This document shows, piece after piece, positions 36,273 to 64,000 of a DNA stretch of 64,000 nt. The translations under genes and the position numbers were made by a program. The notes under the pieces were generated by a model. That model saw only the letters and a list, made by a program, of their open reading frames with translations. It had not been told where the DNA came from and made no database searches. Positions within the stretch are counted from its first letter, which is position 1, and every line of letters starts with the position of its first letter. Source of the DNA: Breznakibacter xylanolyticus (GTDB lineage: Bacteria > Bacteroidota > Bacteroidia > Bacteroidales > Marinilabiliaceae); assembly GCF_003254275.1 (NCBI RefSeq), contig NZ_QKZK01000004.1, positions 1-64,000 of the forward strand, read 5' to 3'.

Positions 36273-36303
36273 ATTTTTTTACGGGTTACAATGGGTTATC
36301 ATT

Positions 36304-36988: not shown

Positions 36989-37014
36989 TTGAATGAATAT
37001 CATGAACTGTTTTG

Positions 37015-39333: not shown

Positions 39334-39359
39334 GATAAATTGGGTTATGGGTTGGTGAA

Positions 39360-39884: not shown

Positions 39885-40105
39885 AATATTGATGCAAATC
39901 TGAAAAAAATATTTCTACCCTTGATGACCCATTAACTAAATGTTGCGCAGAATTTGATGTAGGCCTACAAATGATTGACGAATGGTATAATTTAAGCCAT
40001 GAACGAAAGAAGTAAGGATATTCAACGATTCGACTGAATGCTTTAATTATTTGAGGAGTGTTTTACTTATGTGTATTGATTGAGCGAATTGGTTGAATGT
40101 TTGCT

Positions 40106-40780: not shown

Positions 40781-40845
40781 AGATATTTCGGTTAGTTTGA
40801 TAACATTGTATATCTTTATTTCTCAATTCATTTACTTAAACGACC

Positions 40846-41244: not shown

Positions 41245-41270
41245 TTGTTTAACCCTTATTCTACATTTAT

Positions 41271-43688
41271 ATGATATTTGGTTTTATTGTACTGGGCATC
41301 ATCATGTTGGTGATGGGCAGTAGTATTCTTTCGAGGATTAAGAACCTTGAGGTGTTGATTTCATATATGGCTGTTGATTTGAAGGAAATCCGCCGTAAAC
41401 ACAATTCAATGTCATCCATGTCAGATGACCTTCAAAAAGCGGGTGAAGCATCATTTGATGAGTCCGAGGCTTCTCTCGAAGGCGTGGTTGAGGAACCGGA
41501 TTCTGAACCCTCGTTTGAATCAGAACCTCCATTTGAGCCCGATTATGTTGAGACATTTGAAGCTTCACAGCCCGAATCAACAGAAGAGGATGAACCTGAA
41601 ATGATATCCCCTGTCATGGCTCACATGTCGCAATCAGAATGGGTATTTTCGCGCGAAGGAGCTATTATTGACAAACCCACCTCCACGTTCGCTGAGAGAT
41701 ATCCCGATTTTGAAAAATTTGTGGGCGAAAATCTCATCAACAAAATAGGCATTGGCATTCTGGTATTGGGCATCGGTTTTTTTGTGAAGTATGCCATCGA
41801 TCAGGATTGGATCAACGAAATTGGTCGTGTGTTCATTGGCATTTTGTGTGGGGGCGGGCTGATTGGACTGGCACATAAAATGAGAAAAAATTTTCCGGGC
41901 TTTAGTACAGTGCTCATCGGGGGTGGCCTATCGGTGTTATATTTTACCATTGGCATTGCTTTTTCGATGTATCATTTGCTGTCGCAGCCGGCCGCCTTTG
42001 GCATCATGGTGGTGATTACGTCGTTTGCGGTGGTGTTGTCGTTGTTATACAATCGCATCGAACTGGCTGTGTTGGCGCTCATTGGTGGTTTTGGCACGCC
42101 TTTTTTTGTCAGCACGGGCGAAGGAAATTACGTGGTGTTGTTTACATATCTGATAATTCTTAACACGGGCATGCTGGTGTTGGCGTGGTTCAAAAAGTGG
42201 GGACTGGTCAACATCTTCTCCTACGCCTTTACAGTGATGCTTTACGGCGGATGGCTCATCAAGGATCTGACATCCGACGCGCCCCACCTGATGGGTGATT
42301 TTGTGTTCGGAACCATTTTTTACGCCATGTTTTGGATGATGAATCTGGCCAATAACATCCGCAACAAGGAGAAGTTTGAAGCGCCGGAATTCATGATTCT
42401 CATCAGCAACACCTTTTTATATTATTTGGCAGGGATGCTCATTCTTCGTCAGTGGAACGAAGGGCTTTACCAGGGTCTATTCACGGTGGTGATGGGCGTG
42501 GTCAACTATCTCATTGCATTGGTGCTGCACCGGCGACGGTCGGTCGATCGCAATTTGTTTTACCTCATGATCGGGCTGGTGCTGACCTTCATCAGTTTGG
42601 CAGCACCCATTCAGTTGAAGGGGAACCACATCACGCTGTTTTGGGCGGCCGAGGCCGTATTATTGCTTTGGTTGTCGCAAAAGTCGGGCATCACCATCAT
42701 CAGGGCGGCATCGTTGGTCATCGCGTCGTTGATGCTCATCAGTTTGATGATGGATTGGGGCGGGTATCATCAAAACGAAATTCAACCCATCATTTTCAAT
42801 CGGATTTTCATGACCGGATTTATTGGCGTGGCTTCTCTGGTGGGTTATTATTTGCTTTTGAAACGCGATGAGGGAACCGATGTGTTGTTCGCGAGCATTT
42901 CGTTACCCCTGCAGCGCACCATTTTTTCAGTGGCAAGTGTTGTGTTGTTGTATTGGGTGGGGCTTTTTGAACTCAATCAGCAGGTTACTGACCGCATCAT
43001 GATATTTGCCGCAGCACCGATGTTGTTGTGGAGTTACAATTTTCTGTTTGTGGCGGTGTTGGCCTATTTCATGCGTCATCGAGTTCAACAATATGTCACC
43101 ATCTCCTTTACCGTTGCCATTGGGGTGTTATGGTTGATGTACCTGTTTGTATTTAATAGGGCAGTCATCACCCTTCGTCACGAATGGCTTGATGGCTCGG
43201 GCATTGCAGCCATTCTTTTTACGCTTCATTTTATTTTTTCGGCTGTTTTGGTGGGTTTGCTTTTTGAGTTAAGGCGCAGGTTGTCGCTATGGATGGCCAG
43301 TCATCAGCCCGAAAACGCCTGGTGGTACATGATTCCCATGTTGGTGATCGTGCTCAGTGCCGAGCTCGACCATGTGATGCTGGGGTTGATACGACCTGCC
43401 GCAGATAATGCTGGCACCTTGTTGACACAGGTTCATCGCATTGGTTATCCCATTTTATGGGGATGCCTGTCATTTGGGCTGGTGGTGTGCGGCATGCGCC
43501 ACAAAGTCCGAACCCTACGCCTGGTGGGGTTAACGCTTTTCACCTTCATCGTCATCAAATTGTTTTTGTACGATGTATGGGGCATGAACGAGGGTGGCAA
43601 AATATTGTCGTTCGTGTTGCTGGGCGTGCTGCTGCTGGTGGTTTCGTTTATGTACCAAAAGCTGAAAAAGATGTTGAGTGATGAATGA
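41271..43688 (+). CDS. DUF2339 multi-pass membrane protein
   Basis: An 805-residue inner-membrane protein. Residues 1-15 are a membrane helix, 15-45 look coiled coil, about 50-130 are an acidic Glu/Pro/Ser linker, and from about 150 to the end there are some 20 or more hydrophobic helices. The signature FVGENLINKIGIGILVLGIGFFVKYAI is typical of DUF2339 (predicted membrane protein). The function of the family is unknown; in many Bacteroidota and Proteobacteria it is paired with a DUF3999 gene, as here (43908). The pair might form an envelope complex, which is inference from synteny. Confidence 0.9.
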   Translation: MIFGFIVLGIIMLVMGSSILSRIKNLEVLISYMAVDLKEIRRKHNSMSSMSDDLQKAGEASFDESEASLEGVVEEPDSEPSFESEPPFEPDYVETFEASQPESTEEDEPEMISPVMAHMSQSEWVFSREGAIIDKPTSTFAERYPDFEKFVGENLINKIGIGILVLGIGFFVKYAIDQDWINEIGRVFIGILCGGGLIGLAHKMRKNFPGFSTVLIGGGLSVLYFTIGIAFSMYHLLSQPAAFGIMVVITSFAVVLSLLYNRIELAVLALIGGFGTPFFVSTGEGNYVVLFTYLIILNTGMLVLAWFKKWGLVNIFSYAFTVMLYGGWLIKDLTSDAPHLMGDFVFGTIFYAMFWMMNLANNIRNKEKFEAPEFMILISNTFLYYLAGMLILRQWNEGLYQGLFTVVMGVVNYLIALVLHRRRSVDRNLFYLMIGLVLTFISLAAPIQLKGNHITLFWAAEAVLLLWLSQKSGITIIRAASLVIASLMLISLMMDWGGYHQNEIQPIIFNRIFMTGFIGVASLVGYYLLLKRDEGTDVLFASISLPLQRTIFSVASVVLLYWVGLFELNQQVTDRIMIFAAAPMLLWSYNFLFVAVLAYFMRHRVQQYVTISFTVAIGVLWLMYLFVFNRAVITLRHEWLDGSGIAAILFTLHFIFSAVLVGLLFELRRRLSLWMASHQPENAWWYMIPMLVIVLSAELDHVMLGLIRPAADNAGTLLTQVHRIGYPILWGCLSFGLVVCGMRHKVRTLRLVGLTLFTFIVIKLFLYDVWGMNEGGKILSFVLLGVLLLVVSFMYQKLKKMLSDE

Positions 43689-43761
43689 GAAGAGAAGTGG
43701 CAAAGTGCAAGAGTGCAGGAGTGCGGAAGTGCTACGCCAGAGTATCTAAAGAAATAATGCC

Positions 43762-43795
43762 AAAGTCCCCCTTTGGGGGATTTAGGGGGGGCTTT
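43762..43795. repeat. GC-rich dispersed hairpin TCCCCC-TTT-GGGGGA
   Basis: AAAGTCCCCCTTTGGGGGAT is followed by TTAGGGGGGGCTTT. It is a common type of intergenic repeat in Bacteroidota and could also stop transcription of the DUF2339 gene. A related but shorter element lies at 26775-26791. Confidence 0.65.
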
Positions 43796-43859
43796 AATAT
43801 GAGACACATGAATATATTAGACGATAACATGCGATAAAGTGGAGTATGAATGTTTACAC

Positions 43860-43896
43860 ACATCGTCTTGTGTCTTGAAACTCACATCTTAATACT
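43860..43896. repeat. Degenerate copy of the TTGATACT repeat family
   Basis: GTCTTGTGTCTTGAAACTCACATCTTAATACTTT keeps the order of words seen before leuB, with substitutions. It lies in the 219-bp gap before the DUF3999 gene, which otherwise shows nothing. Confidence 0.5.
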
Positions 43897-43907
43897 TTAT
43901 TAAATAC

Positions 43908-45122
43908 ATGAAACCATTTCTTTGGATGATGGCAGGATGTCTCCTGTCGATGGGGGCTTGGGCTCAAAACCGGGTGTCACATTTTTCGACTGTTGACTCA
44001 TCGGGTTTTTACAAAATTGAGTTGCCGCGCGATGGCGTGGGTTTGATGGCGCCCGATTATTGCAATATGCGGATTTTGAACCAGCAGGGGCGCGAGGTGC
44101 CATACAAGCCGCTGTCGGAACGTGCGCCCTACCAAACGGCCGACTTCATGACCCTGCCCCTAGTGGAACAGCAGATGTTGCCCGACTCGGTCACCATTTT
44201 GGTTTTTCACAATGCCGATCAGCGGCGCATCGACCATTTGGCATTGCAAATTGGCAATGCGGGGGTCGAAAAACAGATGCGGCTCACGGGCAGTAACGAC
44301 CGCGTGACGTGGTTTTCGGTGCGCGAAAATGCCATGTTCAGCACCGTGAGCAACCCCGACGATGTGAGCCAGATGAAGCTCATCGACTGTCCGTTGGTTA
44401 ATTACGCCTGGTTGCGGCTCGAAATTGATGACCGACGCACCAGCCCAGTCAATGTGATGAGGGGCGGCATTTATCTCACCCGATCCGAAATGCCGGTGGT
44501 GCCTTGCGATACCCTGCCGCTGCGCATGAGCTGTACCGAAGATGCATCTGCCAAAACCACCCGCGTGCAGGTATTATTCGACGGGACGCATTGGTTGGAT
44601 CGTGTGGAAGTGCAAGTGCAGGCGCCCCCTTTTTTCAGGCGTGAAGTCGATTTTTACGTGATCGAACGCGACACGGCGGCCATCCTTCGTGAGCGTTACC
44701 ACATGGGCGCCGTGTTTGCTTCGGGCGAGCCCATTGTGATGTACCCTGCTTCGGTCAGGGGCGACGGATTTGCGTTGGTGATTGCCAACAAAGACAACCC
44801 CCCTCTGGAGGTGACCCACATCAGTGTTTTCCAAAAAAAACGTTACCTGCTGGCCTGGCTCGAACAGGACGACAGTTGCAGTCTGGTTTTTGGCAACCAA
44901 TACACCCGCGCTCCCGACTACGACATACAACACTTCAATGCTCGCAACGATGCCCTCTTGCCAGTGGTTATGGCGCAGCCTCCCATGCTTTTGCCCAATG
45001 AGGTGAAGCCTCCCGTGAAACCTTCATTTTTTAAAGATGAACGCTTCATTTGGGCGGCCATCGTGTTGGTAATGGCCTTGCTGGGGTATTTTACTTATGT
45101 GTTGATGAAAGAGAAATCATAA
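43908..45122 (+). CDS. DUF3999 family exported protein with C-terminal membrane anchor
   Basis: A 404-residue protein with an N-terminal signal peptide (MKPFLWMMAGCLLSMGAWAQ, cut after WAQ), a beta-rich periplasmic part with two discoidin-like or jelly-roll-like regions, PDYDIQHF near 344-351, and one C-terminal transmembrane helix (about 378-398, FIWAAIVLVMALLGYF) ending KEKS. This layout fits DUF3999. It follows the DUF2339 gene, the usual partner. A broken copy of its C-terminal part sits at 29910-30078. The function is unknown; an envelope role is likely. Confidence 0.85.
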   Translation: MKPFLWMMAGCLLSMGAWAQNRVSHFSTVDSSGFYKIELPRDGVGLMAPDYCNMRILNQQGREVPYKPLSERAPYQTADFMTLPLVEQQMLPDSVTILVFHNADQRRIDHLALQIGNAGVEKQMRLTGSNDRVTWFSVRENAMFSTVSNPDDVSQMKLIDCPLVNYAWLRLEIDDRRTSPVNVMRGGIYLTRSEMPVVPCDTLPLRMSCTEDASAKTTRVQVLFDGTHWLDRVEVQVQAPPFFRREVDFYVIERDTAAILRERYHMGAVFASGEPIVMYPASVRGDGFALVIANKDNPPLEVTHISVFQKKRYLLAWLEQDDSCSLVFGNQYTRAPDYDIQHFNARNDALLPVVMAQPPMLLPNEVKPPVKPSFFKDERFIWAAIVLVMALLGYFTYVLMKEKS

Positions 45123-51796: not shown

Positions 51797-52861
51797 TTAC
51801 CACGAATAACCAAAACGCAGTCCCACATAATCGGCCACGTTGGCTTGCGCTTTTAAATTAAAGCCCACAACCCAACGTTGAAAAAAATGATATTGAAGAG
51901 CATAAAGCTGCATCATCCGATGATAGGCATCACCGGCCATCACAAATGAATAACCAATTTCTTGGCTAAAGATAAAATCGCCCAACATAAAAACATGCCC
52001 CAAAAGCGGGGAGAAGAGAAATCCCTGAGGCGTCGCAACAGGGTTTTCAAATTCAAAGAGTCCACCGGCCGACCATCCATTTATACGCGTCCACTGATGA
52101 ATGTATCGGGAATGAAAATAGAGGATAAATTGAGTATTTTCGATACCGGTACCCGACACATCCTTAGACCCTATGCCTGCCACCGTTTCAATCCAATGCC
52201 GCCGCATGCCGGGATCGACACGTAACATTTGTGAATGCTCTCGTGGTGGCACCCGATACCGATCCAGTGCATATTCAACCCCAAAAGATAAAACCGGGTA
52301 ATTGACTCCATAATTAGGTTGTTTGATTCCCCCATTCGAAAAATGACTCAAATAACCACTCCCTTTCAACGACCACTTGTACGACAATGGAACATACACA
52401 TTGAGTCCAACAGACAAAGGAAATGAAACAGGGAGACTATAAGCCAGATTTTGCGGATGATCTTCAGCATCGTAAGGATCGGTTAAAAGGATTATTCCAA
52501 TACCCCCTTTTAAAGAACACATAAAACGATTGGACGCGAACAAAAAGGGTTCAAAATAAAACATTCCGGATAATCCATATCCCAACACATCGCTGTTAAA
52601 ATCCCAAACCGTAAAAGAGAAGCCACTACGCGGATAACAACCGTAAGTTTGCTTCGCAGAGGAATGAAAATAATGGCGTCCAAAATCGATTTCTAAACCG
52701 AGGGGATAAGCTCCCAATAAATTATTGACATGGCGTGAATGGATTTGAACTTTACCATAAGCGGGCATCACTGACACATAGCGGTTATAATCAGCCACAC
52801 GCTGCTGTGCTACAATGGGTACCAACACAAATAAAAGAATATGAAGCAATGATTTTTTCAT
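51797..52861 (-). CDS. Lipid A 3-O-deacylase (PagL)-like acyloxyacyl hydrolase
   Basis: A 354-residue outer-membrane beta-barrel protein with signal peptide (about 1-19). The signature LSHFSNGGIKQPNYGVN at 171-187 matches the PagL active-site segment, with His173 and Ser175; the position of the catalytic Glu (12 residues after Ser) is Asn187 here. PagL removes the 3-linked acyl chain of lipid A, which weakens immune recognition. The N-terminal 150 and C-terminal 130 residues extend beyond the 150-residue barrel of the Pseudomonas enzyme. The assignment to the superfamily is good; activity is uncertain. Confidence 0.82.
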   Translation of the reverse strand: MKKSLLHILLFVLVPIVAQQRVADYNRYVSVMPAYGKVQIHSRHVNNLLGAYPLGLEIDFGRHYFHSSAKQTYGCYPRSGFSFTVWDFNSDVLGYGLSGMFYFEPFLFASNRFMCSLKGGIGIILLTDPYDAEDHPQNLAYSLPVSFPLSVGLNVYVPLSYKWSLKGSGYLSHFSNGGIKQPNYGVNYPVLSFGVEYALDRYRVPPREHSQMLRVDPGMRRHWIETVAGIGSKDVSGTGIENTQFILYFHSRYIHQWTRINGWSAGGLFEFENPVATPQGFLFSPLLGHVFMLGDFIFSQEIGYSFVMAGDAYHRMMQLYALQYHFFQRWVVGFNLKAQANVADYVGLRFGYSW

Positions 52862-52973
52862 CTCCCTACAGATAGAAACACTATCAAATTACTATCAAAA
52901 GGGGGAGAGGGGGTAATTTTTCGACCCTACAAAGTGGGCATTTTAAACATGACCACCATTCTTTCATCAAAAT

Positions 52974-54101
52974 TCACTCGACAAAAAACAAATCTTCAAT
53001 CACCTTATCGGTAATAAAACGGTGTTCAGATGAAATTCGACACCAACCATTATCAAGAATCAACACACCGGTATCGAAGTATTTTTTAGATTGAAGAATA
53101 AAATAATCAGAAAAATACACAGACATAGCCAGGATATCTTGCATCAAAAAACCTTTAACGGTTCGCAAACCAAGCATGATCCTTTCATTATAACAATCAC
53201 GATCAGTCAATTTTTCTTCAGCATAAAAAGATTCACTGCCATTCAAACACTGAATATACGCATCAACATCCGACACATTCCAAAACCGGCTCCCTTGATA
53301 AAATGAATGAGCCGAGGGTCCGAATCCAATATAATCGCCACCTTCCCAGTAAAGCGTATTGTGACGAGAATAAAAACCGCGTTTTGCAAAAGCCGAAACT
53401 TCGTATTGTTCAAAACCGTATTGTTGCAAAATATCAACCATTAACCGATATTGCTGCAAACTCTCATCTTCATCAATCTCTTTTAAATCGCCACACTGAA
53501 GGCGACGATAAAATTCGGTTCCACTTTCATAAGTTAAATGATATGCAGACAAATGAACAATGGGCAATTGAACCACACAAAGTAATGTCGATTTCCACAT
53601 ATCAAGCGACAAACTGGGTAAACCATATATCAAATCAACACTAATATTGTGATATCCATTTTCAACAGCGCGATTCACAGCATCCACCGACTGTTGAAAC
53701 AAATGACGTCGATTCATCAGCTTCAACAAATCATCAGATTGTGTTTGCAAACCAAAACTAATACGGTTTACAGGAGTCTGTTTTAACGACAAAACAAAAT
53801 CATCCGTAAAATCATCAGGATTAATTTCAATCGTCACTTCAACAGATCGATTAAAATCAACACATCCTCGAAATAAATCAAACAACAAAATCAACTCATC
53901 ACCCGACAAAACACTTGGTGTACCACCCCCCACATAAAAAGTATCAAACACACGCGACTGAAACAACTCCTGTTTCAATGCAATTTCTTTCTTTAAGGCA
54001 TTTAGAAAATCATTTTTAAGACGCAAATTTGTACTCTTATAAAAATCGCAGTAAAAACACTTGCGTTTACAAAAAGGAACATGAACATAAACACCCGCCA
54101 T
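52974..54101 (-). CDS. hemW: Radical SAM heme chaperone HemW-like protein
   Basis: A 375-residue radical SAM protein of the HemN/HemW family. The cluster motif is CKRKCFYCDFY near residues 11-21, preceded by GVYVHVPFC, and followed by GGGTPSVLSGDELILLF. It matches HemW, the heme chaperone, rather than coproporphyrinogen dehydrogenase HemN, since it lacks the N-terminal extension of HemN and ends with the HemW C-terminal domain. Start ATG at 54101 is likely (MAGVYVHVPF); 54116 adds five residues. The parS site lies 18 bp upstream. The gene is strongly AT-rich. Confidence 0.9.
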   Translation of the reverse strand: MAGVYVHVPFCKRKCFYCDFYKSTNLRLKNDFLNALKKEIALKQELFQSRVFDTFYVGGGTPSVLSGDELILLFDLFRGCVDFNRSVEVTIEINPDDFTDDFVLSLKQTPVNRISFGLQTQSDDLLKLMNRRHLFQQSVDAVNRAVENGYHNISVDLIYGLPSLSLDMWKSTLLCVVQLPIVHLSAYHLTYESGTEFYRRLQCGDLKEIDEDESLQQYRLMVDILQQYGFEQYEVSAFAKRGFYSRHNTLYWEGGDYIGFGPSAHSFYQGSRFWNVSDVDAYIQCLNGSESFYAEEKLTDRDCYNERIMLGLRTVKGFLMQDILAMSVYFSDYFILQSKKYFDTGVLILDNGWCRISSEHRFITDKVIEDLFFVE

Positions 54102-54118
54102 ACCCAGTAAAATCAAAG

Positions 54119-54134
54119 TGTTTCACGTGAAACA
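54119..54134. promoter_or_regulatory. parS: parS centromere site, perfect consensus
   Basis: TGTTTCACGTGAAACA at 54119-54134 is exactly the 16-bp parS consensus bound by ParB (Spo0J), and is extended to the 18-bp palindrome GTGTTTCACGTGAAACAC (54118-54135). It lies in the 106-bp gap between divergent hemW and the vanZ-like gene. parS sites normally cluster close to the chromosomal origin. Confidence 0.92.
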
Positions 54135-54162
54135 CTACTTTAAAAAACTCAATTAAATAGGT

Positions 54163-54204
54163 TTATCAACAAGTTATAAACAAATACACACTCTTTTATC
54201 AACA
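54163..54204 (+). promoter_or_regulatory. Two DnaA-box-like sites beside parS
   Basis: TTATCAACA at 54163-54171 and again at 54196-54204, same orientation, 33 bp apart. Each differs from TTATCCACA at one base. They lie just before the vanZ-like start and might bind DnaA or be coincidental in AT-rich DNA. Confidence 0.45.
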
Positions 54205-54207
54205 GAT

Positions 54208-54615
54208 ATGATGAAATTTTTTAGTTTTTATAAAAAAACCATCATTTTAATCATCCTGATTACCATGGTGAGCTTAATGAATTTTAAAAATATCGAACCC
54301 GACAAAATTCCAAATATTCCACACCTCGATAAGGTCGTTCATTTTGGCATGTACCTTACCCTTACTTTCACATTTATGTGGGAAAACTACTGCCGACATC
54401 AATATCATTTTATCTTATCACGATTCATCATCATCATCATCGCGGTGGTGGCTATGGGAGTAATGATTGAATGGCTACAAGCCAACTTTACCGTTTCGCG
54501 CAGTGGGAGTGTGGGTGATGCCATGGCCAATTCGGCAGGATTAATGATGGGTATGATTTTATTCAGAATCACCAAAACCAATCATTACATCAAATCAAAA
54601 ATTTTCAAAGCTTAA
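54208..54615 (+). CDS. VanZ family membrane protein
   Basis: A 135-residue integral membrane protein with four hydrophobic segments. The motif PHLDKVVHFGMYLTLTF (39-55) and the end EWLQANFTVSRSGSVGDAMANSAG are characteristic of the VanZ family (H-x-x-x-Y, D-x-x-x-N-x-x-G). VanZ proteins of enterococci affect teicoplanin resistance, but most members are of unknown role. It is the only rightward gene left of the putative origin, and its 3' end overlaps the convergent rrf2 gene by 11 bp. Starts MMKF; the second Met is possible. Confidence 0.85.
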   Translation: MMKFFSFYKKTIILIILITMVSLMNFKNIEPDKIPNIPHLDKVVHFGMYLTLTFTFMWENYCRHQYHFILSRFIIIIIAVVAMGVMIEWLQANFTVSRSGSVGDAMANSAGLMMGMILFRITKTNHYIKSKIFKA

Positions 54616-55048
54616 AAAAGTCCAACTTGCCATCCATTTTGGACACAATGTTTCCAATAGTCTCATTTTTAAATAAATCCAATAATTTGGCACGTATTTC
54701 ACTAAACTGATCATGAACCGGGCAACGCAACGAATCCTCTTCGTTAGATTTGCAGGGCTGCATCCCAATTAAACAGTTTTCAAATAAATCGCGACCATCA
54801 ATAATTGTAACAATATCGTACAACGAAATATCATTTACAGGTCGTGCAAATCCAAAACCACCATGGGGTCCTTTGGTCGAAGTCAATAATTTATGCTTAG
54901 CAAGCGATTGCAATATTTTACCTAAAAATGGGGTGGGGATGTCCAACTCTTTAGAGATTTCCTTAATCCCAATTTTCTTCTCATCTCCTTTATTTATAGC
55001 TAAATAAATAATGGCTCGAATGGCATATTTGCAGGTATTTGAAAGCAT
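54605..55048 (-). CDS. Rrf2-family iron-sulfur transcriptional regulator
   Basis: A 147-residue winged-helix regulator. The start MLSNTCKYAIRAIIYLA and GIKEISKELDIPTPFLGKILQSL (helix-turn-helix) are typical of Rrf2. Three Cys residues at 92, 99 and 109 sit where IscR and NsrR bind their cluster, but the spacing C-x6-C-x9-C differs from IscR (C-x5-C-x5-C). It may sense iron-sulfur status, oxygen or nitric oxide. It lies 39 bp downstream of the lutB-like gene on the same strand and so may control it. Confidence 0.88.
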   Translation of the reverse strand: MLSNTCKYAIRAIIYLAINKGDEKKIGIKEISKELDIPTPFLGKILQSLAKHKLLTSTKGPHGGFGFARPVNDISLYDIVTIIDGRDLFENCLIGMQPCKSNEEDSLRCPVHDQFSEIRAKLLDLFKNETIGNIVSKMDGKLDFFKL

Positions 55049-55087
55049 AAAATAATGATTTGATAAAACAAAAATAGTAATTAAAAA

Positions 55088-56458
55088 TTACCTCTTATTA
55101 TTCCACTGCACACTAAAAGATTTGGCAGCAAACTTTGGAAACTTCTTCTGATTGCCAAGCATCTTACTCATGGTTAATCCACTTACCATTGTTTTAAGAT
55201 TTCCATTCATATTGAATAAAGCCCTTCTTTTCATAACCAAAGTAGCCATATTAAACATGATAGTTTCGCCAACAGGTGCACACCCTGACTCAACGCTCTT
55301 ACGACGATTTTCGAGCAACAAATCGGGTATAGGAATCTGAACCGGACATACTTCAGCACATTTACCACACAATGAACTGGCAAAACTCAAATGCTTAAAT
55401 GCCTGCATTCCTTTAAAATGTGGGGTAATTAAACTCCCTATAGGTCCGCTGTATGTAGCACCATAAGTGTAACCGCCAACATTTTTGTAAACGGGACAAG
55501 CATTTAAACAAGCTCCACAACGAATGCACGATAAAGCTTCGTACAAATGATGATCAGCATATAAATTCGTACGCCCGTTATCCATCAAAATGACAATCAT
55601 TTTTTCAGGACCATCAGATTCGCACGGTTTACGCGGTGACGAAAAAATGGAATTATACACTGTCATTTGTTGCCCGGTACCCAGAGCCGATAACAGTGGC
55701 CACATTAACCCCAAATATTTAGCCGATGGGATCACCTTTTCGATAGCGGCAATCACAACATGAATGCGGGGCAAAGAAGCCGTTAAAAGGGCATTTCCTT
55801 CGTTTTCGGTGAGGCAGACAGAGCCAGTATCGGCCACTAAAAAATTAGCGCCTGTAACGCCCATTTCTGACGTCACAAACTTTTGACGCAAAAAATTTCT
55901 CACCCAAGCTGTTAACTCTTGAGGTGTACTTCCCGATGGGGTTTTAAATTTTTGATGAAACAATGCATCAATGTCTTCCTTAGACTTGTGCATGGCCGGC
56001 GTCACAATATGATAGGGTTTTTCGCCGGCAACTTGCACAATAAATTCTCCCAAGTCAGTTTCGAGTGGTTCAACGTTCATCGACTCAAAAAAATGGTTCA
56101 ACTCCACTTCTTCGGTGGTCATCGATTTACTTTTTACCACACACTTAACCTGTTCACGACGAGCGACTTCTCCAATTATCTTTAGAACATCAGCATCGGT
56201 TTGAGCCCAATGAACTTCAGCTCCGTTTCTAACCAGATTGTTTTCAAGTTCTTCGAGCAATTCAGGTAAGCGATTCAACACACGACGCTTCAAAAAAGCA
56301 GCTCTTTGCTTAGCCAAAGGTTGATGCGAGTATCTTTCACGACCCTTTTCAACGGCCAAATCATACTTGCCAATATTGAATTTAATTTTCCTACGATGCT
56401 CTAAATCAAAAGCTACTCGCTGTGCATCGTTAAGAAACTGATGTGATTGTTTACTCAT
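55088..56458 (-). CDS. LutB/LldF-type L-lactate utilisation iron-sulfur protein
   Basis: A 456-residue protein of the LutB family: an N-terminal LUD domain (about 60-300) and a C-terminal part with two 4Fe-4S motifs, CIRCGACLNACPVY and CGKCAEVCPVQIP. LutB works with LutA and LutC in oxidation of L-lactate to pyruvate. Neither lutA nor lutC is nearby here, so it is an orphan in this window. It is flanked by rpiB upstream (32 bp) and the Rrf2 regulator downstream. The gene is AT-rich like its neighbours. Confidence 0.9.
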   Translation of the reverse strand: MSKQSHQFLNDAQRVAFDLEHRRKIKFNIGKYDLAVEKGRERYSHQPLAKQRAAFLKRRVLNRLPELLEELENNLVRNGAEVHWAQTDADVLKIIGEVARREQVKCVVKSKSMTTEEVELNHFFESMNVEPLETDLGEFIVQVAGEKPYHIVTPAMHKSKEDIDALFHQKFKTPSGSTPQELTAWVRNFLRQKFVTSEMGVTGANFLVADTGSVCLTENEGNALLTASLPRIHVVIAAIEKVIPSAKYLGLMWPLLSALGTGQQMTVYNSIFSSPRKPCESDGPEKMIVILMDNGRTNLYADHHLYEALSCIRCGACLNACPVYKNVGGYTYGATYSGPIGSLITPHFKGMQAFKHLSFASSLCGKCAEVCPVQIPIPDLLLENRRKSVESGCAPVGETIMFNMATLVMKRRALFNMNGNLKTMVSGLTMSKMLGNQKKFPKFAAKSFSVQWNNKR

Positions 56459-56490
56459 CTACCTGATTGATTAGTGTGATAACCTAATGA

Positions 56491-56928
56491 TTACTTTTTA
56501 ACAGGTATTTTATCAATACGCGTTTGATGGCGACCCCCTTCAAAACCGGTATTCATAAAAGCATCAACAATATCAAAAGCTTCCTGTTCAGAAATGAAAC
56601 GAGCTGGTAAACTGCAAATGTTAGCATTGTTATGCGAACGTGCTAACGAAGAAATCTCACTATTCCAGCATAAAGCAGCACGAATACCCTGATGTTTATT
56701 GACAGTCATGTTAATGCCATTTCCGCTGCCACATACAGATATACCAAAATCGCAATCCCCCTTTTCAACCGAATCGGCCATGGGATGTGCATAATCTGCA
56801 TAATCGCAACTCTCTGCAGAATTGGTTCCAAAATCAATAAAAGTATAGCCTTTCGCTGTTAACAGCACTTTAATTTTTTCTTTTAAGTCAAATCCTGCAT
56901 GATCACTCGCAAGAGCTATTGTTTTCAT
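56491..56928 (-). CDS. rpiB: Ribose-5-phosphate isomerase B
   Basis: A 145-residue RpiB (LacAB family), interconverting ribose 5-phosphate and ribulose 5-phosphate. Active-site sequences: ASDHAGFDLKEKIK (5-18), CGSGNGINMTVNKHQGIRAALCW with the catalytic Cys, and ARSHNNANICSLPAR. It begins directly at the left edge of the putative origin region and reads leftward, followed 32 bp later by lutB. Length and motifs are standard. Confidence 0.95.
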   Translation of the reverse strand: MKTIALASDHAGFDLKEKIKVLLTAKGYTFIDFGTNSAESCDYADYAHPMADSVEKGDCDFGISVCGSGNGINMTVNKHQGIRAALCWNSEISSLARSHNNANICSLPARFISEQEAFDIVDAFMNTGFEGGRHQTRIDKIPVKK

Positions 56929-57610
56929 ATTCTGATGTTTATAAATTGTAAAATGCTTTTATCACCAATTTTAACACATTGGGCAAAGATACGCTCTAAA
57001 TCAGATATCAATGTATCTTTAAGTACTTTTTTCCGTTGAACAATCAACTGTTTCCTTAGTTATTCACAATTGTAATATGAAAAGAGCCCTGTGATTATAA
57101 AAGTGAAAAAATACTTCTTGCCCCATTCATACGAATATCCCTTGATTAAATATATTAAAGTAATGATATTTTGATGTTTACAACGTTATCAACACCCAAA
57201 TCGATTGTTGAGAAAATTGTGAATATCAGTGTTAATAATTGGTTCATTGAAAATGAAAAATCATGAAAACTTTATTTGGGCAATTAAAAAAGTTGAATAC
57301 ACCATTTGAGTTATCAAACCACCAAAAGGATTAGCCCTTTTTTCGTAGCATTCTTTCAACACCCCAAAAGGGTTGTTTCAACAAGCTTGCTTCATTTATT
57401 TATTAAATTTGTGCGCTATTAACCGATTGTGAATAGCAAACCTAAATACTATAATATCAGTACCATTACATAGAAAAGGGTTGTTGATAACCCCCTAAAA
57501 GGGTTGTTACTTTAATGGATTATTGAGATGACAACATGCTTTGTCATTTTTTTACCAACAGTTTCAACACCCTTTATTCTTATTCTTTTATATTTTTTAA
57601 ATATCTTAAT
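56929..57610. other. oriC: Candidate chromosomal replication origin (oriC) in gene-free AT-rich gap
   Basis: Divergent genes rpiB and nadA border 680 bp of AT-rich DNA without a plausible gene. DnaA-box-like 9-mers are TTATTCACA (57060-57068), TTATCAACA (57186-57194), its reverse form TGTTGATAA (57482-57490), and one-mismatch forms TGTGAATAT (57218-57226) and TGTGAATAG (57428-57436). The 12-mer AAAAGGGTTGTT is repeated at 57366-57377, 57474-57485 and 57497-57508. Genes on the left mostly read leftward and on the right all rightward, and plus-strand composition passes from A/C-rich to T/G-rich. A perfect parS is 3 kb away. dnaA itself is not in the window. Confidence 0.6.
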
Positions 57611-58603
57611 ATGAATAATAATAGTTGGTTAAAAGCCGGATATGTAAATGAACCTGTTTCTAAGGATCTGAATCTGGTTGATGAAATCGCACGCTTAAAA
57701 AGAGAAAAGAATGCCGTAATCATGGCTCATTATTATCAAACCAACGAAATACAAGATATTGCTGATTTTATAGGTGACAGTTTGGCTTTGGCGCAACAGG
57801 CTGCCAAAACATCTGCTGATATCATTTTGCTTGCAGGTGTTCATTTTATGGGCGAAACAGCTAAAATCATATCTCCGTCAAAGAAGGTGCTCGTTCCCGA
57901 CTTAAATGCCGGTTGTAGCCTTGCTGACAGCTGTCCTCGCGATATGTTTGAAACATTTTTAAAGAAGCACCCCGATCACATCGTTGTAACCTATGTCAAT
58001 ACTTCTGCTGAAATTAAAGCATTGTCTGACGTTGTTGTTACTTCAACAAATGCCAAAGCCATTGTTGATAGTTTGCCAAAAGATGCAAAAATCATTTTCG
58101 GACCCGATCGTAACCTGGGCAATTATATTAATAGTGTAACAGGACGCGACATGTTGTTATGGGATGGAGCTTGTCATGTGCATGAGAAATTTTCGTTAGA
58201 AGGCATATTGCAATTAAAGAAAGAATTTCCTCAAGCTCAAATTATTGCTCATCCCGAATGTAAAAAACCTTTGTTACTTGTGTCTGATTTTGTGGGTAGT
58301 ACAGCTGCATTGTTGAAATATGTGTCTCAATCAGATGTACAAACTTTTATTGTCGCTACCGAATCCGGTATTTTGCATCAAATGCAATTAGCTCAGCCTC
58401 ATAAAACTTTTATTCCAGCACCACCTGTCGATTCTACTTGTGGATGCAATGATTGTGAATTTATGAAATTAAATACCTTATCAAAGATTTACAATACCTT
58501 AAAATTTGAATGGCCTACGATTGAGCTTGAGGAGTCTTTGCGTTTAAAAGCTTTGGGTTCAATTGAAAAAATGTTGGCTATTTCAAACAAACTTGGTTTA
58601 TAA
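57611..58603 (+). CDS. nadA: Quinolinate synthase
   Basis: NadA condenses iminoaspartate with dihydroxyacetone phosphate to quinolinate in NAD synthesis, using a 4Fe-4S cluster. The 330 residues show AHYYQTNEIQDIADFIGDSL near 38-57, AGCSLADSCPRD, HPEC and STCGCNDCEFMKLNTL, containing the three cluster Cys. The start MNNNSWLKAGY at 57611 is preferred over the upstream ATG at 57536, whose extra residues are unlike the family. NadB and NadC are not in the window. The plus strand here is T-rich. Confidence 0.96.
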   Translation: MNNNSWLKAGYVNEPVSKDLNLVDEIARLKREKNAVIMAHYYQTNEIQDIADFIGDSLALAQQAAKTSADIILLAGVHFMGETAKIISPSKKVLVPDLNAGCSLADSCPRDMFETFLKKHPDHIVVTYVNTSAEIKALSDVVVTSTNAKAIVDSLPKDAKIIFGPDRNLGNYINSVTGRDMLLWDGACHVHEKFSLEGILQLKKEFPQAQIIAHPECKKPLLLVSDFVGSTAALLKYVSQSDVQTFIVATESGILHQMQLAQPHKTFIPAPPVDSTCGCNDCEFMKLNTLSKIYNTLKFEWPTIELEESLRLKALGSIEKMLAISNKLGL

Positions 58604-58654
58604 ATATTTCTTCAGTATTTTCACAGACATTTATTTTTGAAACCTCTATTTTTA

Positions 58655-59044
58655 ATGATCAATTTAGCATCAAAGCTTCATATTTTGTTGGTTGAGGATA
58701 ATATTCTTAATCAAAAATTGATTTTCTTATACCTTGCAAAGGTAGGTTTTGAAATTGATGTGGCTAATAATGGCTTAGAGGCTTTCGAGAAAATTCAATC
58801 ACGAACTTATGATTTAGTGCTGATGGATTTAATGATGCCTGTGATGGATGGTCTTGATGCTACTCTTAAAATTAGTGAGTATGAAAAGACTGTTTTCAAA
58901 TATACTAAGATCATTGGCTTAACAGCAAATACTTTTGATGCTGACCGTGAAAAATGCCTGATGCACGGGATGGATGAGTATATGGCAAAACCTTTTGATA
59001 TGGAAGAGTTTAACCGTATTTTAACGAAACTCCAAATTATTTGA
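58655..59044 (+). CDS. Single-domain response regulator
   Basis: A 129-residue stand-alone receiver domain: HILLVEDN with the acidic pair Glu14-Asp15, phosphoacceptor Asp58 in VLMDLMMPVMDG, the Thr/Ala switch region GLTANTF and Lys in MAKPFDMEEF. With no output domain it probably works in phosphotransfer or by binding a partner, like CheY or Spo0F. No kinase is adjacent. ATG at 58655 (MINLASKL) is preferred; a TTG six codons upstream is possible. It lies 51 bp after nadA and 18 bp before ruvB. Confidence 0.9.
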   Translation: MINLASKLHILLVEDNILNQKLIFLYLAKVGFEIDVANNGLEAFEKIQSRTYDLVLMDLMMPVMDGLDATLKISEYEKTVFKYTKIIGLTANTFDADREKCLMHGMDEYMAKPFDMEEFNRILTKLQII

Positions 59045-59062
59045 TTTACTTATAATTCCATC

Positions 59063-60082
59063 ATGGATTTCGACATACGGAAAAACAATTCTACTGATGC
59101 TGAATTTGAACGCAGTTTGAGACCTTTATCTTTTGATGATTTTAAGGGTCAACCCAAAGTTGTTCAAAATCTTGAAGTTTTCGTTAAAGCTGCTTCTCTC
59201 CGGGGTGATTCTCTTGATCATGTGCTTTTACATGGACCTCCCGGATTAGGAAAAACAACTTTAAGTCAAATTATTGCTAATGAATTAGGCGTAGGCCTCA
59301 AAATCACCAGTGGTCCTGTATTGGATAAACCTGGTGATTTGGCAGGTATTTTAACAAGCCTTGAGGAAAAGGATGTTCTTTTCATAGATGAAATTCATCG
59401 TTTGTCCCCTGTTGTTGAAGAGTATCTTTATTCGGCGATGGAAGATTATCGAATTGATATTGTTATTGATAAAGGACCTGGTGCGAGAAGTATTCAATTG
59501 AATTTGAGTCCCTTTACATTAATAGGTGCAACTACTCGTAGTGGTTTATTAACAAGTCCATTGCGTGCACGTTTTGGTATTAATTGTCATTTAGAATATT
59601 ACGATTGTTCTATTATCGAATCTATTATCAATAGATCTGCTAATTTGTTAAAAGTGGGCATTGATGCCAATGCTTCACATGAAATTGCCAGGAGAAGTCG
59701 CGGCACACCAAGGATTGCCAATGCCTTGCTGCGTCGGGTACGCGACTTTGCCCAAGTTAAAGGGACTGGCCATATTGATGTAGAAATTGCTCTTTATTCA
59801 TTAGATGCTTTATCTATAGATAGATATGGATTAGATGAAATGGATCACAAAATATTGTTAACTCTCATTGATAAGTTTCAAGGAGGCCCTGTTGGTGTCT
59901 CTACCATTGCAACTGCAATTGGTGAAGATGCCGGTACCATTGAAGAAGTATATGAACCTTTTTTGATTAAAGAAGGTTTTATTAAGCGTACCTCACGTGG
60001 TAGGGTTTCAACTTTGTTAGCATATCAGCATTTTGGTAAACAAGCCAGCTATTCTCAAGCTGATTTATTTTCAAATAGTTAG
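59063..60082 (+). CDS. ruvB: Holliday junction branch migration DNA helicase RuvB
   Basis: RuvB is the AAA+ motor that drives branch migration with RuvA in recombinational repair. The 339 residues contain [19 protein letters not shown], Walker [11 protein letters not shown], Walker [11 protein letters not shown], sensor 1 [18 protein letters not shown] with the arginine finger, and the C-terminal winged helix ([28 protein letters not shown]). Standard length. It lies between the response regulator and dut, 9 bp before dut, as in many Bacteroidota. ruvA is elsewhere. Confidence 0.97.
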
Positions 60083-60091
60083 TTCTTTATT

Positions 60092-60526
60092 ATGACTATT
60101 CAAATTATTAATAAAAGTCATCATTCTTTACCTTCGTATAGTACCTTTCATTCTGCAGGTATGGATATAAGGGCTTTTTTAAATGCTCCTGTGGTTTTAA
60201 AACCTTTACAAAGAGTTTTGATTCCTACAGGTTTATATATGCAATTGCCCGAAGGATTCGAAGCTCAAATTCGTCCACGTAGTGGTTTAGCCTTTAAGCA
60301 TGGTATCACTGTTTTGAATTCTCCTGGCACAATTGATGCTGATTATCGTGGTGAAATTGGAATTATTTTGATTAATTTGTCAAATGAGGATTTTACCATT
60401 CATGATGGCGAAAGAATCTGTCAAATGATTGTTGCGCCCTATACACGTGTTGACTGGACAAATGTTGAGGTTTTATCTGATACAGAGCGTGGTATAGGTG
60501 GGTTTGGTCATACAGGCAAACATTAA
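60092..60526 (+). CDS. dut: Deoxyuridine 5'-triphosphate nucleotidohydrolase
   Basis: The trimeric dUTPase cleaves dUTP to dUMP and pyrophosphate, keeping uracil out of DNA and supplying thymidylate synthesis. The five motifs are present: SAGMDIRAF (1), [12 protein letters not shown] (2), [15 protein letters not shown] (3), GERICQMIV (4) and [11 protein letters not shown] (5). The 144 residues are standard. It starts 9 bp after ruvB and is followed 11 bp later by the TPR lipoprotein gene, a usual order in Bacteroidota. Confidence 0.97.
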
Positions 60527-60537
60527 TTTTTATCCCT

Positions 60538-62310
60538 ATGCGTTTATTCTTTCTTGGCTTTACTTTATTACTTATTCTTTTTGGATGTAAATCTAATCGC
60601 AGTTTTTCTATTCATTCTTATCCCCCAGTTCCTAAGGTAGATTTAACTGAAGAGAATGCACGAAAATTCGATTATTTCTTTTATGAAGCCAATAAAGAAA
60701 AATTTCTTGGTAATTATGAAAAGTCGGTTACTTATTATGCAGAATGTTTGAGAATTGATTCTACTTCAAGTGTTTGCTTGTATGAATTAGCCAATATTTA
60801 TTCGGGTATAAACCAATATGGAAAAGCTGCTGAATTGATGCAAAAGGCTGTTCACTTTAATCCTTTGAACGAATGGTATCAGTTGGCTTTGGCAGATTTG
60901 TTCCATCGAACAGAAAAGATATCTGAAGCGATTAAAATTTATGAACATCTTGTAAAAATTAAGCCGCAAAGTGAAGAATATCTTTACACTTTGTCACAGT
61001 TGTACGCTCAGTCTAACCAATTTACTTTGGCTTTAAAAACTTTAGATCGTTTAGAGTCTGAAATTGGCTTTAACGAGACCATTATCATGGAAAAGATGAA
61101 AATTTATATTCATCTAAATAATGAAAAATTGTCTTATGCTGAAGTTGAAAAACTCATCAAAAAATATCCTGGTCAGGTTATATATTTGGGTTATTTAGCT
61201 GATTTGTATTCTTATTTTAAGAAATATGATAAAGCAATAACCACTTATACTAAGATGCTTTCCATGGATCCCACTTATGAATCAGTCTATTTTTCTATGG
61301 CAAGTATTTATTATCAACGTAATGATACTTTGCTTTTTAAAACTAATTACTCTAAGGCTATTAATTCAAAACATGTAGCATTGGAGCAAAAAATTCAAAA
61401 ACTGATTCCTTTTTTAATCTCTGATAATCCTGAATCTTCTTCATTTAATGATAATGAATTAGAACAGTTTTTTCAGCAACTTCTTATTTTGCATCCCTTT
61501 GATTCTCAAGGATACATACTTTATGGTAATTTTTTGCGAAATAGAGGAAAATCAGATTTAGCGTTAGTAAAATTTCAAACCGCAATAGAGTTAGAACCTA
61601 CTAATGAACAGTTGTGGCAGGATATTTTGTTTTTACAGGCTGAATTGCGTTTATTCACTGATATGCTCCTTACCGGAAATAATGCTTTGTCGTATTTTCC
61701 TTCCAATGGGGTGATTACTTTGCTTTATAGTTCCGCGTTAATGCAATGTAATAAGGCAAATGAGGCTGTTTCTGTCATAAATGCGATAATTGATACAATC
61801 ACTAATAATCCCCCTCTTAAAGGGCAGTTATATGCATTATTAGGAGACGCTGCCTATAAAGCTGGGCTTTCTGATACTGCCTTTGTAGCTTACGATGAAG
61901 CTTTAAAAATTAACGATCGAAATTTGGGTGTGCTAAACAATTATAGCTATTATTTATCGCTCGATAATCGTGATCTCGATAAAGCTGAAAAAATGAGCAG
62001 TCGTACCATTGAACTAGAACCAGGTAATAGCACATTTTTAGATACTTATGCATGGATTCTATTCAAAAAAGGTCGTTACTTAGAAGCTAAATTTATAATT
62101 GAACGAGCTATTGATAATGGGGGAGATACTAATTTTGAAATTGTTGAACATTATGGTGATATTTTATATTTTAATGGAGATGTTCAAAATGCAATTATTC
62201 AATGGGAAAAGGCTCATATCCTTATGCAAAGTCACACAGATGAATCCATAGATTCCAAAAGACTTCATACCATTCAGCAAAAGATTCTCAATAGGCGCTT
62301 TATTGATTAA
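60538..62310 (+). CDS. Tetratricopeptide-repeat lipoprotein
   Basis: A 590-residue predicted lipoprotein (MRLFFLGFTLLLILFGC, Cys17) built of about 12 TPR units spread from residue 40 to the end, e.g. NYEKSVTYYAECLRIDST, QYGKAAELMQKAVHFNP and KYDKAITTYTKMLSMDPTY. Such repeats bind partner proteins. The position dut-TPR-DUF4292-EnvC-like peptidase is conserved in Bacteroidota, which suggests work at the envelope, for example in outer-membrane assembly or cell separation. The genes are closely spaced (20 bp to the next). No precise function is known. Confidence 0.9.
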   Translation: MRLFFLGFTLLLILFGCKSNRSFSIHSYPPVPKVDLTEENARKFDYFFYEANKEKFLGNYEKSVTYYAECLRIDSTSSVCLYELANIYSGINQYGKAAELMQKAVHFNPLNEWYQLALADLFHRTEKISEAIKIYEHLVKIKPQSEEYLYTLSQLYAQSNQFTLALKTLDRLESEIGFNETIIMEKMKIYIHLNNEKLSYAEVEKLIKKYPGQVIYLGYLADLYSYFKKYDKAITTYTKMLSMDPTYESVYFSMASIYYQRNDTLLFKTNYSKAINSKHVALEQKIQKLIPFLISDNPESSSFNDNELEQFFQQLLILHPFDSQGYILYGNFLRNRGKSDLALVKFQTAIELEPTNEQLWQDILFLQAELRLFTDMLLTGNNALSYFPSNGVITLLYSSALMQCNKANEAVSVINAIIDTITNNPPLKGQLYALLGDAAYKAGLSDTAFVAYDEALKINDRNLGVLNNYSYYLSLDNRDLDKAEKMSSRTIELEPGNSTFLDTYAWILFKKGRYLEAKFIIERAIDNGGDTNFEIVEHYGDILYFNGDVQNAIIQWEKAHILMQSHTDESIDSKRLHTIQQKILNRRFID

Positions 62311-62330
62311 TTTTTATTCAACGATTTTCA

Positions 62331-63152
62331 ATGAAATTTTATTATATTTTTTTTTTAATTATTTTAACTTCTTGTGCTTCTAAGAAGAAAATAGCTGGAG
62401 TTATTGATGTTAAACCGATATCAGCGAGTAAATTATTGGATGGTATATCTGAGAATCAATTCGTTTTCGACAATCTTTACATCAAAAAGTTTGATATCGA
62501 TTTGGATGTACCTGGAATAAATATGACGTTGAGGGGATCAATGTTTATACAAACAGATTCTCAAATTGTAGTATCTGTTACCCCTTTATTGGGTATTGAG
62601 GTTGCTCGTGCTTTGATTTCTCCATCACAGTTGGTCTTGATAGATAGAACTAAAAAGAAAATTTACTATTCTGATTATGCTTTACTTTCAAAAAAGTTGG
62701 GTATGCCTCTTAATTTTAGTATGATTCAATCATTGTTTATCAATCAAGTTTATTGTGACAAATCAATTGATTATGAATGCTTTAAAGATTTTGATCATGG
62801 TATTCAGGATGGTATGTATTTTTTAAAAAATTATAAGCAGAAACAAAATAGTAGACGTATAAAATCAAGAGTTGTAAATGATCTGTTTATTCAGTATTTA
62901 TTTGATCCATTGAATTTTACTGTTAAATCTTTTCATATAGAACAAACCAAATCTGGTGATTTAATGAATGTTCATTACAATGATTTCAAAGAATTTAATG
63001 GAAATATTTTTCCCACAAAAATTGATGTTGATGGTAGTTCCAAAGGCACTATTGCAAAAGTTGGTGTTACTTATTTACAAATAGAGTTCAATTCATCTAA
63101 TTCAATCGGTTTTAAAGTACCTGAAAAGTATGAAGTTATTTATATCCAATAA
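62331..63152 (+). CDS. DUF4292 family lipoprotein
   Basis: A 273-residue predicted lipoprotein with lipobox LTSC (Cys15). It has mixed beta sequence and a length typical of DUF4292, a Bacteroidota family whose fold resembles LolA/LolB-like lipoprotein carriers, an inference from its beta-rich pattern (FVFDNLYIKKFDIDLDVPG, MTLRGSMFIQTDSQIVVSV). It is between the TPR lipoprotein and an EnvC-like peptidase whose ATG at 63130 lies inside its last codons, so the pair is translationally coupled. Confidence 0.88.
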   Translation: MKFYYIFFLIILTSCASKKKIAGVIDVKPISASKLLDGISENQFVFDNLYIKKFDIDLDVPGINMTLRGSMFIQTDSQIVVSVTPLLGIEVARALISPSQLVLIDRTKKKIYYSDYALLSKKLGMPLNFSMIQSLFINQVYCDKSIDYECFKDFDHGIQDGMYFLKNYKQKQNSRRIKSRVVNDLFIQYLFDPLNFTVKSFHIEQTKSGDLMNVHYNDFKEFNGNIFPTKIDVDGSSKGTIAKVGVTYLQIEFNSSNSIGFKVPEKYEVIYIQ

Positions 63153-64000
63153 GGTATTATTCATTAGTCTGATATTTTTCTTTTCATTTTCTTTGTTTTC
63201 ACAGGATTTATCAAAATATAATCGTGAGAAAGAACGCTTAACGAGAGAAATTGAATTAACAGGAAAGCTTATTGATGAAAATAAAATTCAGCAAAATAAT
63301 GCAGCTCAATCTGTTGTTTTATTAAATACTCAAATACAATCGCGCCAGCAATTGATTGCGGCTTATCATCAGCAAATTATTCATTATAATGGGCTTATTC
63401 AAAAAATTGATTCTACTATATCAGCATTAAATCAGCATATCATTCTTTCTAAACGTGAATATGAGCGTTTAATTCAAGATACATATCTTCGTCGTCATTC
63501 TTTTGATTTTGCTGTTTATTTGTTCAGTTCTGAATCTTTTAATCAAGCATATCAACGTTATCGAATGATTAATGAAATCAATTCATACCGCAAAGGGCAG
63601 GTAAAAATGATGAGCGAATCGACAACGATAATTAGTAAAGAACGTGATAAATTAGTTCTTTTAAAGGCTCAAGTGAATGATTTATTAAATGGCGTTTCCC
63701 ATCAAACAAGATCTTTAGAAACTGAAAAAAAGGTTTTACAGAAGTCATTGCAGGATTTAAAAGGACGTGAAAAGCGACTTTTATCAGATTTAGAAGTTAA
63801 AAAGAAGCAACAAGAAGTGTTAGAGCAGCGTATTGTTGAGTTAATTCGTGAGTTGGCTTCAAAATCTTCATCAAAGGGTAAATCTTCTGATTTTGAAAAG
63901 AATAAGGGTAAATTGATATGGCCTGTCATTAATGGTGTAGTGGTCAATCAATATGGTGAACATGAACATCCTGTTTTAAAAGGGGTAATGGTTAAAAATA
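63130..64000 (+). CDS. EnvC-like murein hydrolase activator (M23 domain), partial
   Basis: Starts at ATG 63130 (MKLFISNKVLFISLIFFF), overlapping the preceding gene by 23 bp, and runs off the window end; 290 codons are visible. After a signal peptide ending FSQ come long coiled coils (about 26-250: EKERLTREIEL, REYERLIQDTYLRRHSFDF) and the start of an M23 peptidase domain (GKLIWPVINGVVVNQYGEHEHP). This is the architecture of EnvC/NlpD-type activators of amidases in cell division. Whether the M23 domain keeps its metal ligands cannot be seen because the gene is cut. Confidence 0.9.
   Translation, partial: MKLFISNKVLFISLIFFFSFSLFSQDLSKYNREKERLTREIELTGKLIDENKIQQNNAAQSVVLLNTQIQSRQQLIAAYHQQIIHYNGLIQKIDSTISALNQHIILSKREYERLIQDTYLRRHSFDFAVYLFSSESFNQAYQRYRMINEINSYRKGQVKMMSESTTIISKERDKLVLLKAQVNDLLNGVSHQTRSLETEKKVLQKSLQDLKGREKRLLSDLEVKKKQQEVLEQRIVELIRELASKSSSKGKSSDFEKNKGKLIWPVINGVVVNQYGEHEHPVLKGVMVKN

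Follow-up and report, generated by a model that had tools for sequence, protein, structure and literature searches.

A probable replication origin between rpiB and nadA

We have assigned, with high confidence, the chromosomal replication origin (oriC) of Breznakibacter xylanolyticus to the intergenic gap between rpiB and nadA. The assignment is made because independent lines of evidence converge on this gap: the placement of parS sites, skew minima both local and in relatives, recurring DnaA boxes and a conserved unwinding-like element. The local turning point in strand composition, the parS clustering, the box cluster and the conserved element were all established by computation. A first-pass annotation of the window (the whole 64,000-nt stretch analysed, positions 1–64000 of the 214,371-bp contig C4) had put the gap forward as a candidate chromosomal origin, and these results support it. 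The host genome (Marinilabiliaceae, Bacteroidota; placed in Marinilabiliales by NCBI) is available as 4.38 Mb in 92 contigs.

As initially described, the gap is AT-rich and lies between divergent genes: it is 682 bp long with 29% GC, and the genes at its borders match Pfam families PF02502 and PF02445 (Table 1). The nadA start at 57611 was picked with the help of relatives' alignments, the reading frame being already open from 57536. Judged by its 29% GC and by a T-run common to relatives, the gap has the predicted AT-rich unwinding region of an origin. No Rfam family matched at its gathering score over 56400–58700. Single-strand folding of the gap gave a z of −2.9 (20 shuffles), to which no weight was given in the origin call.

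Table 1. Coordinates of the predicted origin, its borders and the sequence features in and near it (window positions)
Feature	Position	Strand	Evidence
parS TGTTTCACGTGAAACA	54119..54134	.	exact; 2.8 kb left of gap
rpiB, left border	56491..56928	-	PF02502, E 5e-57
Predicted oriC, rpiB–nadA intergenic gap	56929..57610	.	skew, boxes, unwinding-like element, relatives
TATCTTTG, probable rpiB −7 promoter element	56984..56991	-	CAAAGATA in 26/36 gaps vs 1.5 expected
DnaA box TTATTCACA	57060..57068	+	9-mer in 12/36 gaps vs 0.64 expected
Second, inverted unwinding-like element, faces rpiB	57149..57192	-	score 14.8, best in 1.94 Mb
DnaA box TTATCAACA	57186..57194	+	9-mer in 14/36 gaps vs 0.7 expected
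DnaA box TTATTAACA	57230..57238	-	9-mer in 21/36 gaps vs 2.0 expected
Iteron AAAAGGGTTGTT, copy 1	57366..57377	+	exact repeat
DnaA box CTATTCACA	57428..57436	-	same-strand box at similar nadA distance in several relatives
Iteron AAAAGGGTTGTT, copy 2	57474..57485	+	exact repeat
DnaA box TTATCAACA, overlaps second iteron	57482..57490	-	YTATYMACA match
Iteron AAAAGGGTTGTT, copy 3	57497..57508	+	exact repeat
Basal-unwinding-like element: abutting weak boxes TTACCAACA + GTTTCAACA, CCC, triplet-like T-rich run	57552..57595	+	score 11.2, second best in 1.94 Mb
AT-rich stretch beyond unwinding-like element, candidate unwound region	57588..57610	.	sequence; T-run common to relatives
nadA, right border	57611..58603	+	PF02445, E 6e-118

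Strand composition in B. xylanolyticus

The shift in strand composition reported at the gap was borne out: over 44–214 kb of C4 the minimum of cumulative GC skew is at 57605 and that of the combined (G+T) skew at 57500, both within the gap. Along the entire contig the cumulative GC skew falls over 0–28 kb, rises over 28–44 kb, falls over 44–57 kb and rises over 57–214 kb. Because the segment from 28 to 44 kb runs the wrong way, the contig-wide minima are found to the left of the gap, at 18687 for GC (−344, as against −330 at 57605) and at 31651 for TA. The GC-skew minimum that was to be looked for at about 57 kb is thus present locally, but it has a near-equal at 18687, and a larger reversal exists on contig C3.

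In the reversed segment (window 28000–44000) both GC and TA skew run against their neighbours, giving the left arm a W shape, and leftward genes for TonB-dependent receptors are located there. The reversal may be due to an inversion or to strong coding bias.

The first-pass annotation had genes pointing mostly leftward to the left of the gap and all rightward to its right. The right-hand part of this description largely stands, with 15 of 17 ORFs of at least 150 aa rightward at 57.5–80 kb, but the left side is not mostly leftward: five ORFs of this length are rightward and four leftward at 44–56.9 kb, and 16 of 19 are rightward at 1–28 kb. The rightward vanZ-like gene (PF04892) on the left, said to be itself C-rich on a side rich in A and C, does have more C than G (GC skew −0.075; −0.238 at third positions) but not more A than T.

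Seven of the nine other long contigs, including contig C2 with dnaA, keep one skew sign in nearly all 20-kb blocks. Two of eight blocks are reversed on contig C7 (reversal size 825) and four of eleven on C3. The C3 reversal (∼130–178 kb) is the largest local one among the ten contigs (2566 in cumulative GC versus 630 at the gap), has its bottom at 173986 and lies mostly in a lower-GC stretch; it is perhaps an imported or inverted segment. The box and skew scans covered 1.94 of the 4.38 Mb. On the skew of the draft assembly alone the gap does not stand out; it is the relatives that tip the balance.

Strand composition in relatives

In the complete genome G041 (6.27 Mb) the GC minimum, determined from 80 kb read around nadA, is at 1364581, inside the rpiB–nadA gap. 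Sampled 20-kb stretches of this genome have mostly negative skew before the gap and positive skew after it, with a second sign change at 4.2–4.7 Mb, on the opposite side of the chromosome. The complete genome G036 (3.10 Mb; 60 kb read) has its combined minimum at 102025, also inside the gap, and an opposite sign change at 1.6–1.8 Mb; its GC-only minimum, at 128051, is outside the gap.

Of 14 named family loci, 12 had flanks of at least the required 6 kb on each side (L133 and L138 were dropped for shorter flanks). In all 12 the GC minimum is located 2–520 bp before nadA, inside the gap in 11 cases and ∼50 bp beyond it in L140; the combined minimum falls between −800 and +50 of nadA in only six. 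Among 41 other loci GC skew is higher on the right side in 35 and changes sign in 27, and the GC minimum is in the 800 bp before nadA in 19. As a mark of oriC, the skew minimum accordingly points to this site in G041 and in all 12 usable family loci, in G036 by combined skew only and in our own draft locally only.

parS sites and the position of dnaA

A perfect parS noted 3 kb from the gap was confirmed as an exact site 2.8 kb to its left. Allowing up to one mismatch, only three parS-like sites exist in the whole genome, at 54119, 67179 and 67448 of C4; two of them are exact and the third has one mismatch. The search for parS at other loci, proposed as a possible refutation, found none. The latter two sites are beyond the window, ∼10 kb to the right of the gap, so that parS is found close to the gap on both sides. 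When the same pattern is reversed, the genome has one match to it on each strand.

Exact parS sites are present in 48 of 60 family genomes and absent from 12. Among the 38 family genomes listed, 35 have parS on the contig of nadA, with 69 sites that all lie within 12.7 kb of the nadA match; one of these 35 has two additional sites on another contig. Two of the remaining three have no nadA match and one has parS on another contig. Outside the family, 35 genomes have both parS and nadA: the two share a contig in 18 (within 30 kb in 14, at 44–101 kb in four) and are on different contigs in 17, an observation of little weight in fragmented genomes. In locus L191 (Marinilabiliaceae bacterium Th196P3bin71) nine parS sites are packed into 1.2 kb (12074–13227), 6–7 kb to the right of nadA.

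Adjacency to dnaA, common at the origins of other phyla and not required of an origin, is absent here. The sole whole-model DnaA match, full-length, is on C2 at 234 kb, and the single ParB match in the genome is on contig C5. The earlier remark that no dnaA neighbours the gap is therefore correct, and, as far as the accessible part of the source goes, oriC in Bacteroidetes is commonly far from dnaA according to DoriC (PMC4755523), so the distance is to be expected. By the shorter way, gap and dnaA are separated by 2.5 Mb in G041 and by 1.2 Mb in G036; in both genomes dnaA has ∼75–79% of the distance between the origin and its opposite point behind it. The nearly complete family genome G007, in which nadA has the coordinates of the Alkaliflexus imshenetskii DSM 15055 record, gave no DnaA match above the cut-off, only weak AAA-type matches; its DnaA may be divergent, or the gene may fall in an assembly gap.

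An origin elsewhere, at ∼18–31 kb of C4 or at the C3 reversal near 174 kb, would agree with the contig-wide GC and TA minima of C4 and with the size of the C3 reversal. We consider it very unlikely. The genome has no parS other than the sites on either side of the gap, the minima of the relatives fall at their own rpiB–nadA gap, and neither of the two regions contains a cluster of boxes; C3 has at 169–179 kb no parS, no box of the YTATYMACA type described below and no unwinding-like element (best score −0.6). The left part of C4 also carries housekeeping genes, for example those for a class I tRNA synthetase and sigma-54. The parS placement, the relatives' minima and the missing box clusters led us to reject both regions as the origin.

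DnaA boxes

The five DnaA-box-like 9-mers noted in the gap are all present and fit the pattern YTATYMACA (Table 1). In 1.94 Mb of this genome, no 682-bp stretch listed outside the gap and starting at such a box holds more than two; hence a rival cluster at another locus, comparable to that of the gap, was not found in this part of the 4.38 Mb. With YTATYMACA the gap is the place of highest box density, but it is not the densest when the E. coli consensus TTATCCACA is used, one mismatch being allowed: by this measure the gap holds only three boxes and one stretch of C5 holds five.

For comparison we used 36 distinct rpiB–nadA gaps, 10 of 46 having been removed as near-duplicates. Without a prior motif, the words enriched in these gaps included TTATCAACA, TTATTAACA, CTATTAACA (in 17 gaps versus 0.6 expected), TTATTCACA and CAAAGATA. 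YTATYMACA occurs 87 times in the 19.4 kb of the 36 gaps (mean 5.0 and maximum 12 in 200 shuffles), at least once in 34 gaps and at least three times in 13; these counts are partly circular, the pattern having been chosen only after inspection of the gap and its relatives, and the k-mer, box and regular-expression motifs all derive from the data in which they are counted. Boxes recur at distances of around −410 or −370, −200, −190 and −133 from nadA, and those of the window found at −381, −183 and −129 agree with this family layout.

An unwinding-like element upstream of nadA

The aligned gaps (L116 and L126, 700 bp or longer, were left out) have a common block 40–80 bp before nadA. It corresponds to a 44-bp element in which two abutting DnaA boxes are followed by a G/C step, a triplet run and a T-run. 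The consensus of 54 sequences reads TT[AT]TYAACM-NTATTAACA-GGC-TATTATCATCAT-nAT-T-run; as it was drawn only from sequences that pass a regular expression, its fixed positions are partly imposed. The regular expression matches 26 of the 36 gaps, where shuffles gave a mean of 0.9 and a maximum of 4 and the reversed sequence gave 2. Among 63 other tails it matches 28 (shuffle mean 1.5, maximum 6; reversed sequence 7). Because the 1.94 Mb scanned in this genome also contain 165 matches, it was replaced with a weight matrix, trained on 50 of the 54 sequences and built without the window's gap, which had failed the regular expression.

When both strands of the 1.94 Mb were scanned, the matrix score exceeded 8 at four positions, two of them within the gap (Table 1); the third-best score was 8.7. 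Plus-strand elements were detected in every one of the 36 distinct gaps, and of 64 other Bacteroidales-type loci 43 have one; up to 50 of these 79 hits are training sequences and at least 29 are not. The other loci include records named Bacteroides, Phocaeicola, Barnesiella and Paraprevotella, and the element is mostly 45–105 bp upstream of nadA. It is missing from 21 of the 64, some of which have little upstream DNA or probably a shifted nadA start. Three Parabacteroides-labelled loci, L143, L149 and L198, have none within 1.5 kb of nadA despite full upstream DNA, which suggests that the origin or nadA has moved there. In four others, L147, L148, L155 and L162, the element is more distant from nadA, at −180 to −446.

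The right-hand element of B. xylanolyticus is degenerate, scoring 11.2 against 19.8–48.9 in the other 35 gaps. A minus-strand element like the inverted one that faces rpiB was found in none of these 35 gaps, and as a weak match in L205 among the other loci; of 36 shuffled gaps, an average of 0.02 had a hit on the minus strand. The triplet run of the window is TTA TTC TTA TTC TTT, after CCCT, and reads 3′-AAT AAG AAT AAG AAA-5′ on the opposite strand. Read by eye, it contains at least three 3′-NAN-5′ triplets with a DnaA box within 16 bp, a pattern that is very permissive in AT-rich DNA. Compared with the consensus 3′-[G/A]A[T/A]-5′ the run of the window (AAT, AAG, AAT, AAG, AAA) is a loose fit and the relatives' consensus a partial one.

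The gap could also be a mere AT-rich divergent promoter region for rpiB and nadA, in which box-like words arise from base composition. Its GC content is low, and the relatives share a promoter-like word on the rpiB side, CAAAGATA, whose reading on the rpiB strand, TATCTTTG, we take to be the Bacteroidetes −7 promoter consensus; a sigma-70 scan found promoter-like sites no more common than in shuffles (4 versus 5.2). Composition does not account for the boxes, which in the 36 gaps are 17-fold above composition-preserving shuffles, and a promoter would explain neither the element nor the relatives' skew minima nor the clustering of parS. On these four counts a plain promoter region was rejected, and there is very little chance that it is all the gap represents.

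Iterons

Three exact copies of the 12-bp AAAAGGGTTGTT in the gap confirm the iterons originally reported, and the repeat is only moderately improbable: when the gap was shuffled 2000 times with a first-order Markov model, some 12-mer came up three times in 14 of the shuffles. Since, in addition, the 1.94 Mb contain two further copies outside the gap, the iterons on their own are weak evidence for an origin. Neither AAAAGGGTTGTT nor its 9-base core was found in the other 35 distinct gaps, so that the iterons are private to B. xylanolyticus among the gaps compared. Iterons together with parS might indicate the origin of an integrated plasmid or second replicon, a reading that we rejected as the least probable of all: across the family rpiB and nadA repeatedly enclose such a gap (36 distinct ones), in two one-contig relatives the skew turns at it, the iterons are private, and a scan of ten neighbouring proteins gave no match to a plasmid initiator.

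Proposed mechanism and relation to known origins

If the rpiB–nadA gap is oriC, the arrangement of its features suggests how it may work. DnaA, encoded elsewhere on the chromosome, would bind the box cluster at ∼57060–57490. From the abutting boxes of the right-hand element (57552–57569) it would load onto the adjacent triplet run and open the AT-rich stretch before nadA. Helicase would then presumably be loaded at the opened stretch and two forks depart in opposite directions; ParB would bind the flanking parS sites, leading to segregation of the new origins.

Origins distant from dnaA are already known for the phylum. The predicted oriC of Prevotella intermedia OMA14 chromosome 1 is likewise rich in boxes, at a skew transition and far from dnaA (PMC4755523); relative to the accessible part of that report, the rpiB–nadA address, the parS flanks and the conserved unwinding-like element are added here. 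In mouse-gut Bacteroidetes, origins were located by parS, GC skew and coverage, and there too, by the accessible text, a parS cluster marks the origin and dnaA is an unreliable marker (PMC10197239); those origins are from other families, and the nadA address and the unwinding element are features of the present set. We found no use of nadA or rpiB as an origin landmark in the literature searched, a search with most subscription journals outside its coverage, and nothing relevant on DnaA-trios in Bacteroidota.

The closest parallel to the element is the basal unwinding system (BUS) of the Bacillus subtilis oriC, in which, according to the accessible portions of two reports, boxes anchor DnaA and are followed by a spacer and then by triplets, the DnaA-trios, where DnaA grips one strand (PMC6669920, PMC8287927). 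The two are alike in their tandem boxes, short G/C spacer, period-three run and AT-rich DNA beyond it. They differ, as far as those portions describe the BUS, in that the boxes here are weak and abut directly, and in the run itself: TATTATCATCAT on the box strand gives on the opposite strand 3′-TAR-5′, with the middle A kept, or, in shifted register, 3′-RRT-5′, and no clean 3′-GAT-5′ repeat. The relatives' 3′-TAR-5′ run with its 4-bp spacer does fit the permissive trio pattern in the published text consulted.

A more far-reaching reading, which we put forward tentatively and regard as rather doubtful, is that Bacteroidales-type bacteria share one ancient origin address directly upstream of nadA, with an unwinding element of its own class in which abutting weak boxes are combined with a 3′-TAR/RRT-5′ run in place of GAT trios. 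In B. xylanolyticus the right-hand element would have decayed and the inverted left-hand one arisen, giving two opposed opening sites, one for each replisome.

Bacteroidota origins cannot be located via dnaA, and read-depth estimates of growth rate depend on origin calls. The nadA address and the 44-bp signature would allow such calls in fragmented gut and marine genomes. The element also offers a compact piece of DNA for asking if the DnaA of Bacteroidota uses the B. subtilis mechanism, but another triplet, to open origins.

The region around the gap is also low in GC: from window position 52000 to 64000, and on to 72000 of the contig, GC content in 4-kb blocks is 0.31–0.39, compared with 0.42–0.55 on most of C4. 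A GC dip at the origin is seen in G041 as well and is less clear in G036.
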